From Gammaproteobacteria bacterium (GTDB lineage Bacteria; Pseudomonadota; Gammaproteobacteria; VBWC01): 64,000 nucleotides of DNA. Below, piece by piece: positions 114-2,886 of this stretch (positions are counted from its first letter, which is position 1; the number at the start of each line of letters is the position of its first letter). Below the pieces are notes generated by a model. It did not search any database. It was not told where the DNA came from and saw nothing but the letters and a program-made list of their open reading frames with translations. The stretch covers positions 1 to 64,000 of the forward strand of contig JAHFRU010000004.1 of assembly GCA_023266115.1 (NCBI GenBank), given 5' to 3'. The position numbers and the translations under genes are program-made.

Positions 114-177
114 GCCCAACGTTCAAATTGAGGGGCGCGCCGCTTTTGGCGCGTCCCTCTCGAACGTAGGGTTAGAC
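114..177 (-). other. attC site closing cassette 3
   Basis: This is an imperfect palindrome. On the - strand it starts with inverse core GTCTAAC (171-177) and ends with core GTTGGGC (114-120). Between them are GC-rich complementary arms around GGGGCGCGCC and GGCGCGTCCC. The inverse core complements the GTTAGAC core that opens cassette 3 at 444-450, which ties this site to that cassette. Confidence 0.88.
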
Positions 178-449
178 CTAGCTTGTGGTTTGAACGAAAA
201 ACGAAGTAAGGGAGAAACACCCTTGCGGATGCCCAATTGATACTGGCCCCGATCAATTGCCTGCGCCACGGAATAATAACTCCGGGAAAAGTCGGCCTCC
301 CTCGGGGGTACACAAAAATTTGAGCAAGAAACCACCCCCTTTCGACTGCCATGAATGACAGCGATCAGATGTTGCCACTTGCTATGCATCGGCGCAAGGT
401 TTTCGTTTTTTTCTTGAAAGATCGCATAAAGAGGGTTTGAGAGGTCTAA
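120..449 (-). mobile_element. Integron cassette 3, no convincing gene
   Basis: This is a cassette of about 330 bp between two attC cores. On the - strand there are overlapping open frames of 81 residues (from 352) and 88 residues (from 389). Both run into the attC hairpin and have an Arg/Pro-rich composition typical of chance translation. A 20-codon frame from 427 starts MRSFKKKTKTLRRC and ends at a stop in the same frame as the 81-residue frame. None is preceded by a clear ribosome site. It may be a gene-less or RNA-encoding cassette, or hold a very small or decayed gene. Confidence 0.6.
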
Positions 450-501
450 CGGCTGAATTCAGCGGACGCCGAAGGCGGTCCGCTGGAATGATGGGTTGGG
501 C
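444..501 (-). other. attC site closing cassette 2
   Basis: On the - strand it runs from inverse core GCCCAAC (495-501) to core GTTAGAC (444-450). An inner hairpin built from GCGGACCGCC and GGCGTCCGC lies between them, with ATTC-containing outer arms as in classical attC sites. The inverse core complements the GTTGGGC core at 911-917 that opens cassette 2. Confidence 0.9.
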
Positions 502-504
502 GTC

Positions 505-891
505 TTACCACGGCCCACCCGTGACTTTGACCTCGAACTCGGCCGTGACGGGCTGAACGAATGTGTTGTTTCGCATGCGGATGTTCGAACCGCCGGAAAT
601 GCGAATACCGGAACCGGTAGCACCGACAAGACTGCGATAGTAGCGCTCAACAATGGCTCGGAACGCTTCGTAATTGAAGGGCCCTTTGTAGTTTGCGGGA
701 TTGGACACCTCAAGCGCGGATGTTTCAAATGAGCCACCGATGGACTGCTTGATGTCCGCATGTAGCGCTTCATATTTCTTTCCTTCAATCTCCATATCGA
801 AAAAGACCCGGGAGACCATGTGCTCGTCGTTGCTCCCATAGTCTTGTGAGTCTTGGATCAACTTTTGAAGCGTGATTATTGCGGTTGCCAT
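505..891 (-). CDS. Unknown 128-residue integron cassette protein
   Basis: I do not recognise this protein. It is the only gene of cassette 2. Its ATG lies 25 bp inside the cassette and is preceded by a good ribosome site (AAAGGAG), and its stop lies directly beside the attC site, a compact fit typical of real cassette genes. The product is soluble-looking, with no signal peptide or membrane segment. It has a helical N-terminus (MATAIITLQKLIQD), a central acidic and aromatic region with FFDMEIEGKKYEALHAD, and a Gly/Ser-rich stretch (TGSGIRISGGSNIRMRNN) before a beta-like C-terminal end (TAEFEVKVTGGPW). No catalytic motif is evident. Confidence 0.75.
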   Translation of the reverse strand: MATAIITLQKLIQDSQDYGSNDEHMVSRVFFDMEIEGKKYEALHADIKQSIGGSFETSALEVSNPANYKGPFNYEAFRAIVERYYRSLVGATGSGIRISGGSNIRMRNNTFVQPVTAEFEVKVTGGPW

Positions 892-910: not shown

Positions 911-970
911 GCCCAACGCCTGAATTAAGCCGCGCCGCGAAGCGGCGTCGGCTTGAATGAATTGTTAGAG
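911..970 (-). other. attC site closing cassette 1
   Basis: On the - strand this is a classical short attC. Inverse core CTCTAAC (964-970) is followed by ATTCATTCAAG, a GCCGACGCCGC/GCGGCGCGGC hairpin, TTAATTCAGG and core GTTGGGC (911-917). The inverse core is the exact complement of GTTAGAG at 1747-1753, the junction with attI, so the cassette 1 circle can be reconstructed. Confidence 0.93.
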
Positions 971-980
971 TGCATCTGAG

Positions 981-1688
981 CTACGCCTGAAGTGCAACTA
1001 GCTCAGCGATCTTCTGCGCGACTACAGCCATTGAATCTTCTGCGGTATCTAGACCACTTCTGGAAGCAAGCATAGGGCTAACATTGCGAAGAGCGTCATA
1101 AGTCGTGTTATGCACGATAGGAACAAGCTGATTACGTGCCAACAGGGTCGAAAGCTCTTTGTCGGCGACACTTTCTTTTGGCAGTCGCTCAAGAAGCGCA
1201 GGCGTTACAAGCACAAGCCCGATTTTTGAGTTCGCTAAGCCCTTGTCGATGGCGCGCATCATCGGTACACCGAGGCCAAGGTCCTTCTCACTGAACCAAA
1301 CTTTGACGCCAGCTGCCACGAGCAACTCATGCAGCTCTTTAGCTGATTCTTGCCGGTCGTCCCATGCGTGGCATAGAAATACGTCACGGAGGTCGGGTTG
1401 CTGAACTGCCCGCGCTTCAACGGTTTGGCGGATCGGTGTCAGTGCCACGATTTGGGCAGGCGTATATGAAACAGATGAGCTCGCTCTCGACCAGCGTGGT
1501 CTTGAACTGCTGCTGGATCTGCCACTGCCGCCGCCACTACTGCTATAGCTGCCTCCGCTGCTGCCCGACGACGAGTATGGCGAGCTGTAACCGCTGTAGC
1601 CGTAGTTGCTGCGGTAACGGCACGCTGGACACGCTGCTGCCGCTGCCGCTGAGTGATGTCCGCGTACTGGAGCTGTGCATCTAGCCAT
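981..1688 (-). CDS. TIR-domain protein with Cys/His N-terminus (cassette 1)
   Basis: This 235-residue protein is the only gene of the integrase-proximal cassette. Residues 1-23 carry a possible zinc knuckle (C4, H11/H12, then CPAC at 20-23). Residues 27-75 are a low-complexity Ser/Gly/Tyr/Arg linker. Residues 101-235 form a TIR domain: RDVFLCHAWDD (strand A), then VKVWFSEKDLGLG with candidate catalytic Glu134, then MRAIDKGLANSKIGLVLVTP. Bacterial TIR domains commonly hydrolyse NAD+ or make cyclic ADP-ribose signals, often in antiphage defence. That activity is inferred here from the family and the Glu, not shown. I recall similar Cys/His-Ser-rich-TIR architectures in other bacteria. A G-rich site (GGGGGGA) precedes the ATG. 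As first cassette it would be best placed for expression from an integron promoter. Confidence 0.82.
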   Translation of the reverse strand: MARCTAPVRGHHSAAAAAACPACRYRSNYGYSGYSSPYSSSGSSGGSYSSSGGGSGRSSSSSRPRWSRASSSVSYTPAQIVALTPIRQTVEARAVQQPDLRDVFLCHAWDDRQESAKELHELLVAAGVKVWFSEKDLGLGVPMMRAIDKGLANSKIGLVLVTPALLERLPKESVADKELSTLLARNQLVPIVHNTTYDALRNVSPMLASRSGLDTAEDSMAVVAQKIAELVALQA

Positions 1689-1746
1689 CTTGTGATCCCC
1701 CCATTTGCTTTTGGTATTTCAAGTAGCGACTAAGTTTGTTGATGCG

Positions 1747-1866
1747 CTCTAACTAGTATTCGACACCCTAATTGGTGTCTTGTTTTACACCAACATGGTG
1801 TGTAACACTTTCTCGTCTTACATAAATCAATTACTTAAACCGAATACTACCGGGAAATACACCCTA
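1747..1866. other. attI region and integrase/array intergenic segment
   Basis: The recombined junction core GTTAGAG (- strand, 1747-1753) marks the boundary between cassette 1 and the resident attI. The remaining sequence up to the probable integrase start is AT-rich and repeats the motif ACACC. A 10-bp direct repeat, ACACCCTAAT, occurs at 1763-1772 and 1859-1868, and further ACACC copies occur at 1787 and 1882. Some of these may be integrase-binding repeats of attI. The cassette promoter should also lie here, but I see no convincing -35/-10 pair on the - strand. Confidence 0.7.
1762..1801. promoter_or_regulatory. Paired ACACC/GGTGT palindromes upstream of intI
   Basis: There are two inverted repeats 24 bp apart. 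One is GACACC-6-GGTGTC at 1762-1779. The other is ACACCA-3-TGGTGT at 1787-1801, extendable to TTACAC and GTGTAA. A weak promoter on the + strand could be TTGTTT (1780-1785) with TAACAC (1803-1808), spacer 17, which would put the second palindrome between -35 and -10. This does not match the LexA box seen elsewhere in the window, so a different regulator or IntI itself may bind. Function is inferred. Confidence 0.4.
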
Positions 1867-2886
1867 ATGAAATCGGAAAGTACACCACGAGTAACGGATG
1901 CCATTACCAATACGGGATTGGCGCCTTCAAAGCCTCGGCTGATGGATCAGGCACGGGACCGGCTGCGCACCATGCACTACAGTTTGCGCACCGAACATGC
2001 GTACCTGGGATGGATCAAACGCTTTATTCTGTTTAATGATAAACGCCATCCGCTGGAATTGTCGGCAGCGGATGTCGAGCGTTTTCTTTCTCACCTTGCC
2101 GTAGCCGGCAATGTGGCGGCTTCGACGCAAAATCAGGCGTTGGCAGCGGTATTGTTTCTGTACAAGGAGGTGTTAGGGCATCCGTTACCCTGGCTGGACA
2201 ATCTTACCCGCGCGAAACGGCCGGCACGTTTACCGGTGGTGTTAACGGTAACCGAGACGCAAGCGGTGTTGAGCCGGGTACCCGGCACGGTGGGGCTGGT
2301 GTTGCGCCTGTTGTACGGCACCGGCATGCGGCTGATGGAAGCCGTGCGATTGCGGGTCAAGGATGTTGAGTTTGAGCGCCGTGAAATCGTGGTGCGCGAT
2401 GGCAAGGGGCAGAAGGACCGGGTGACGATGTTGCCGGAGTCTTTGATCGCGCCGCTGGGTGAGCATCTGGCGCAGGTAAAAGTCTTGCATGAGCAGGCAC
2501 GTGCGGCGGGACATGGTGACGTCTATCTGCCCTATGCTCTGGCGCGCAAGTATCCAAATGCCGGCCGCGAATGGGGCTGGCAATATGTGTTTCCGGCGCG
2601 CGATATTTCGATTGATCCGCGCTCGGGCGCGCGGCGCCGTCATCATCTGGACGAGAAGGCGGTGCAGCGGGCGATGAAGCAGTCGGTGCGCGATTCCGGT
2701 ATGGTCAAACCCGCAACCCCGCATACTTTGCGCCACTCATTCGCCACCCACCTGCTGGAAGGCGGGTACGATATCCGCACTGTGCAGGAACTGCTCGGGC
2801 ACAAGGACGTGACGACGACGATGATTTACACGCACGTGTTGAACAAGGGCGGACGGGGCGTGCGCAGTCCGCTGGACCGCATGTGA
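1867..2886 (+). CDS. intI: Integron integrase IntI (tyrosine recombinase)
   Basis: IntI catalyses attC x attI and attC x attC recombination to insert, shuffle and excise cassettes. From ATG 1867 the product has 339 residues. It has an N-terminal SAM-like DNA-binding domain ([20 protein letters not shown] onward) and a C-terminal catalytic domain with the conserved Arg in [13 protein letters not shown], the beta-hairpin Lys in [20 protein letters not shown], the second His in [15 protein letters not shown] and its Tyr nucleophile. The integron-specific extra segment is present ([13 protein letters not shown] onward to [14 protein letters not shown]), as is the typical C-terminal [12 protein letters not shown]. 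An ATG at 1780 would add 29 residues of poor similarity and lies in the palindromic region, so 1867 is preferred. All catalytic residues are intact, suggesting a working enzyme. Confidence 0.95.

Follow-up and report, generated by a model that had tools for sequence, protein, structure and literature searches.

A mobile single-gene TIR family, found here as the first cassette of an integron, as a candidate anti-phage effector

The 64,000-nucleotide stretch of DNA analysed here, hereafter the window, holds an integron near one end whose first cassette encodes a small TIR-domain protein, and the question that this locus raises is whether such a protein serves in defence on its own or belongs to some larger system. 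The features on which the answer depends are as follows, with positions given in the window.

981..1688, minus strand: TIR-protein gene, ATG at 1688 and stop at 981; 235 aa, intact open reading frame
1620..1679, minus strand: N-terminal Cys/His cluster, candidate zinc knuckle; residues 4-23, C4-x6-H11-x8-C20-x2-C23
1497..1619, minus strand: low-complexity Ser/Gly/Tyr/Arg linker; residues 24-64, from composition and disorder
996..1388, minus strand: TIR domain; residues 101-231, from profile and fold matches
1155..1157, minus strand: codon of E178, candidate catalytic Glu, aligned to AbTir E208
1287..1289, minus strand: codon of E134, invariant, aligned to AbTir E168 and adjoining D167
917..1752, minus strand: whole TIR cassette, about 836 bp from attI junction to attC crossover
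1741..1753, minus strand: attI/cassette junction GTTAGAGCGCATC, G^TTAGAGC at 1753/1752
911..970, minus strand: attC of the TIR cassette, crossover 917/916, G^TTGGGC box
505..891, minus strand: second cassette, 128-aa protein, from gene call and profile searches
444..501, minus strand: attC of the second cassette, from R''/R' boxes and folding
114..177, minus strand: third attC, from R''/R' boxes and folding
1867..2886, plus strand: integron integrase IntI (TIGR02249, E=2.6e-143); open frame from 1780, ATG at 1867 likely

The integron itself is of the ordinary layout, with IntI divergent and reading away from the array. R'' and R' boxes are present at all three attC-like sites, and single-strand folding relative to shuffled sequences gives z = -2.9 for 911-970, -3.6 for 444-501 and -4.5 for 114-177. 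With one open reading frame per cassette and with attI and attC sites beside IntI, the integron is genuine, and the TIR gene occupies its first cassette. The array is cut off at its far side because the window starts at a contig end (G000:C6:1). The protein of the second cassette matched no Pfam, NCBIfam or PADLOC family over the cut-off and had no plasmid match.

With respect to domain architecture, residues 103-214 match Pfam TIR_2 (E=1.8e-14, 54.7 bits against a cut-off of 28), and the PADLOC model PDLC00424 (ThsB1|ThsB, TIR-like) covers the whole protein at E=1.6e-124. A second PADLOC model, PDC-S66, which describes a candidate defence TIR, matches residues 91-231 at E=7e-27 and leaves the N-terminus outside the match. 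An AlphaFold (AF2) model for which 70 sequences were aligned, with a mean pLDDT of 73, contains an ordered TIR fold that Foldseek matches to TcpB/BtpA, PdTIR, BtTir and AbTir at E of about 1e-9, with target-normalised TM scores of about 0.75-0.85 to TcpB, PdTIR and AbTir. The linker is disordered in this model, with pLDDT below 50 over residues 28-64, and the N-terminus, modelled metal-free, is of low confidence (pLDDT 58-73). In sequence, the N-terminal cluster is nearly invariant: C4 is kept in 69 of 70 relatives and H11, C20 and C23 in all 70, with the 6-8-2 spacing preserved. These four conserved residues are candidate metal ligands of the kind expected in a zinc knuckle or zinc ribbon, and zinc-ribbon models of Pfam match the region below threshold only. 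When plasmids were searched with this N-terminal module, almost every annotated match listed was a TIR protein.

The linker varies in sequence and keeps its make-up, averaging 37% Ser, 22% Gly, 13% Tyr and 11% Arg over 70 relatives, with three to seven Tyr per linker and acidic residues almost absent, a regularity that is inflated by the kinship of the sequences compared. Median dN/dS is 0.05 for the TIR domain, 0.13 for the N-terminus and 0.31 for the linker, values that are rough because synonymous sites are near saturation. Purifying selection is strong in the TIR domain and N-terminus and relaxed in the linker; conservation across phyla, together with the TIR value of about 0.05, rules out chance. 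An earlier note on this DNA, made from its letters, had described an integrase-proximal, single-gene cassette for a full TIR domain joined by a Ser/Gly/Tyr-rich linker to a small Cys/His cluster, and every element of that description was borne out, to which we add that the gene lies on the minus strand. As the note supposed, the cluster may bind zinc or nucleic acid.

The same note had proposed Glu134 as the catalytic residue, and in this respect our analysis leads elsewhere. E134 is invariant; two alignments nonetheless place it at AbTir E168, beside D167, and align E178 with the catalytic E208 of AbTir and with the corresponding Glu of PdTIR. E178 is kept in 69 of 70 relatives, the remaining one having Lys, and it falls near the start of a predicted helix (residues 176-184), as would suit a catalytic Glu in the C-helix region. 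An earlier AbTir profile alignment, which lacked a four-residue gap, would put E208 at a position other than E178, and it is the PdTIR profile alignment and the predicted helix that favour E178. We therefore regard E178 as the candidate catalytic Glu. The pocket Phe (F104) is invariant, and the surroundings differ from those of AbTir: S140 and D167 are replaced by C106 and S133 in all relatives, and W204 and Y238 by V/I174 and V/I203 among relatives. The WxxxE motif and these other NAD-pocket residues of AbTir, taken as marks of a bacterial TIR NADase, are lacking. Mutation at AbTir S140, D167, W204 or Y238 inhibits NADase activity, and the equivalents of W204 and Y238 are dispensable in TcpC (PMC11374754). 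Since four AbTir pocket positions differ, NAD+ cleavage by the protein is plausible rather than to be taken for granted, and its product may not be the usual one.

The family to which this protein belongs is large and scattered. When one genome per species was scanned, the encoded relatives numbered more than 470, and the best 80 of these are nearly all full length, share 63-87% identity and come from Pseudomonadota, Bacteroidota, Bacillota, Cyanobacteriota, Myxococcota and Thermodesulfobacteriota. Within the window's own class the family occurs in 2 of 370 genomes, one of them the window's, and identity this high across phyla combined with so sparse a presence indicates horizontal transfer.

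Residence in integrons also recurs, which answers a search suggested alongside the original description. In 11 of 80 loci, among them that of the window, the stop codon is followed within 35 bp by the attC R'' box [CT]TCTAAC, where 0.14 would be expected from its frequency of 0.17% in background windows; the cassette-end signature GTTAGAGCGCATC is found upstream in 15 of 80 loci (1.5 expected) and GATGCGCTCTAAC downstream in 14 of 80 (0.3 expected), these signatures having been picked after viewing the window's own attC and then tested against background. The excess is too large to come from that post-hoc choice. A strict attC pattern matched three loci only, and a loose one stayed near background. 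In one relative (L044) a GNAT cassette precedes the TIR gene within an integron that has an IntI of its own, and in another (L042) it lies about 100 bp from IntI and is frameshifted. Scoring 14 rows of the family tree as cassettes requires 10 state changes, so that integron residence was gained or lost many times. Our literature search, beyond whose reach lay the cassette screens published in Science in 2025, found no description of this TIR family as a cassette. Two further observations concern individual copies. The L042 gene (8003-8694) has its frameshift within the Cys/His region and is a decaying copy; in Brevibacillus (L078, 7460-9300) the TIR gene sits between direct repeats of about 390 bp that are 91% identical and may mark a mobile unit.

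The recombination site of the window's cassette connects it to a much better known population. All 60 positions of its attC agree with the site that follows qacF in class 1 integrons carried by plasmids of Klebsiella grimontii and K. pneumoniae, and the aadA1 attC, also from class 1 integrons, is 95% identical to it; attC sites of this type occur at 80% identity or more in at least 5000 plasmid records. Ghaly et al. (PMC8352920) assign the attCs of qacF and aadA1a to Xanthomonadales, with chromosomal integrons as their most likely source. By virtue of this shared attC, the TIR cassette looks like a member of the same cassette pool, and IntI1 could in principle move it, to judge from attC identity. 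In the five plasmid loci examined, no TIR cassette adjoined IntI1. The attC at 911-970 is, in itself, of the chromosomal source type for resistance-cassette attCs.

Outside integrons, the family is found in 108 of 5426 E. coli genomes, in 196 plasmid records, mostly of Klebsiella, and in 20 viral contigs (L112-L131) at several different prophage positions. In a P2-like prophage (L121) the TIR gene has gpA, a P2-type gene for replication, on one side and the portal gene on the other, which is the gpA-gpQ site described as an anti-phage hotspot (Rousset et al., PMC9122126) and noted again since (PMC9519451). Two other copies (L117 and L118) break head/tail modules on the opposite strand in the fashion of cargo genes, another (L119) is near an Abi-alpha-like gene, and an E. 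coli island places the gene near MAD and Abi genes. More broadly, 139 immediate-neighbour proteins matched 147 PADLOC models at E<=1e-10, compared with 5 for 94 control proteins; this comparison counts models, which overlap, and takes its control from other regions, mostly core genome, of some of the same genomes, and for these reasons it indicates an association with accessory and defence regions and nothing beyond that. Integron cassettes are themselves well known to harbour anti-phage genes (PMC12409362). Taken together, these contexts make a defence role for the TIR protein likely. Among the 80 family loci we found no common neighbour, no conserved antitoxin and no shared secretion genes, and a full-length single-gene family of this kind probably needs no fixed partner.

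The PADLOC assignment nonetheless raises the possibility of an orphan ThsB, a TIR protein that makes an ADP-ribose signal for an effector of ThsA or other type encoded elsewhere in the genome. The sequence match is indeed full length, and ThsB-like working of the protein is possible. Profile searches found neither STALD nor ThsA_Macro in the window's genome, both profiles giving matches elsewhere in its class as a positive control, and among 50 genomes that hold the family a STALD-type ThsA is present in three and ThsA_Macro in none, which leaves 47 without the former and all 50 without the latter. In the window's class, STALD-type ThsA passes the cut-off in 2 of 370 genomes, and the higher share among holders of the family (p=0.013, uncorrected, between samples that differ in taxa and size) is the second point in favour of this account, though one on which we do not rely. 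In none of the three relatives was ThsA found beside the TIR gene, in keeping with the lack of a shared neighbour at the 80 loci, and at most of the STALD ThsA loci that we examined there is a separate TIR-like gene, which has no phmmer match to the window's TIR protein. The ThsB label is unsupported by context, as Thoeris membership entails being encoded with ThsA, and we consider an orphan ThsB unlikely. One apparent neighbour, the ThsA of Brevibacillus (G050:C64), looked adjacent at first and lies outside the TIR locus. Separately, a genome of the window's genus that has no member of this TIR family holds a locus for a ThsA of STALD type (482 aa), accompanied by TIR-like neighbours and a 984-aa gene (L106).

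The altered pocket allows a different objection, namely that a host effector responds to some other product of the domain (a different isomer of cyclic ADPR, a conjugate bearing ADP-ribosyl or the result of base exchange), or that the protein works non-catalytically. The four replacements of AbTir NADase residues are fixed across phyla, E134 is invariant beside S133, and the ThsB pocket of macro-type Thoeris is likewise altered (PMC11204291); against this, E178 and F104 are retained and two of the four positions are those that TcpC can spare, and we hold this account, too, to be improbable. Plasmids, islands and integrons would also favour a toxin-like gene kept for its own persistence, that is, for stabilisation of the cassette or plasmid rather than for phage defence, and toxin-antitoxin genes do lie near some copies. 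The lack of a conserved antitoxin, the sporadic occurrence in the class and the placement in the P2 hotspot make this a distinctly weaker candidate, with a low probability in our estimate. Finally, the presence of TcpB/BtpA among the closest solved structures could suggest a protein aimed at eukaryotes, which would disturb TLR signalling of hosts or predators. The bacteria that carry the family are mostly environmental and include a cyanobacterium and Paenibacillaceae, its contexts are prophages and integrons, and secretion genes are not shared among loci, such that we give this explanation very little credence.

The reading towards which we lean, with modest confidence, is a horizontally mobile, stand-alone anti-phage TIR effector that acts through NAD+. 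The abortive-infection effector proposed in the earlier note survives here as the best reading, supported by the single gene, the TIR fold and the defence contexts, and without its catalysis by E134. As the main other conserved element, the N-terminal cluster is likely a sensor or multimeriser: this Cys/His module, probably binding one zinc ion, would recognise an infection product or multimerise the protein. The flexible Tyr/Arg-rich linker would tether several TIR domains and perhaps help to condense them. Domains clustered in this way could build head-to-tail active sites as in other TIR NADases, with E178 driving NAD+ cleavage, and loss of NAD+ or an NAD-derived signal would halt the infected cell. 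There is precedent for such a scheme in other TIR NADases, which become active once another domain gathers them; SpbK, which combines an N-terminal sensor and a TIR domain in one protein, is gathered on the phage portal protein YonE and defends by self-association-dependent NADase activity (PMC12847820). A bolder version, which we put forward as speculation with the odds well against it, would have one-gene immune TIRs crossing phyla as cassettes with a resistance-type attC, condensed by a FUS-like Ser/Gly-Tyr linker together with a metal-binding sensor knuckle and releasing from their remodelled pocket an NAD-derived product undescribed for other TIRs.

Three results of this work add most: the family recurs as a cassette, its member in the window has an attC in common with resistance cassettes, and the ThsB label lacks contextual support. 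If the preferred reading is correct, the protein would rank among the smallest complete TIR immune systems, with 235 residues in one movable cassette and a distribution over many phyla. The anti-phage and antibiotic-resistance cassette pools would be joined by one shared recombination site, by way of which class 1 integrons might in principle come to hold defence genes of this kind, and a database label would be corrected, as PADLOC names this family ThsB and it does not travel with ThsA. With its altered active site, the protein would allow a direct check on which residues of the TIR pocket each product requires.

Among known systems, the proteins described by PDLC00424 are the same family over the full length, with a Thoeris label that is not borne out for want of a ThsA partner, and the candidate defence TIR of PDC-S66 shares a likeness confined to the TIR domain. 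AbTir, PdTIR and TcpB/BtpA have in common with the window's protein the TIR fold, about 30% identity and an aligned catalytic Glu, but they are not known as phage-defence proteins, and the AbTir residues S140, D167, W204 and Y238 are not kept. The qacF and aadA1 cassettes share the attC and, unlike the TIR cassette, carry resistance genes in mobile integrons. SpbK of Bacillus subtilis differs at its N-terminus, in place of which the window's protein has a short Cys/His cluster and a disordered linker; like that protein, it joins a non-TIR region at the N-terminus to a TIR domain at the C-terminus within one chain, and it works alone.
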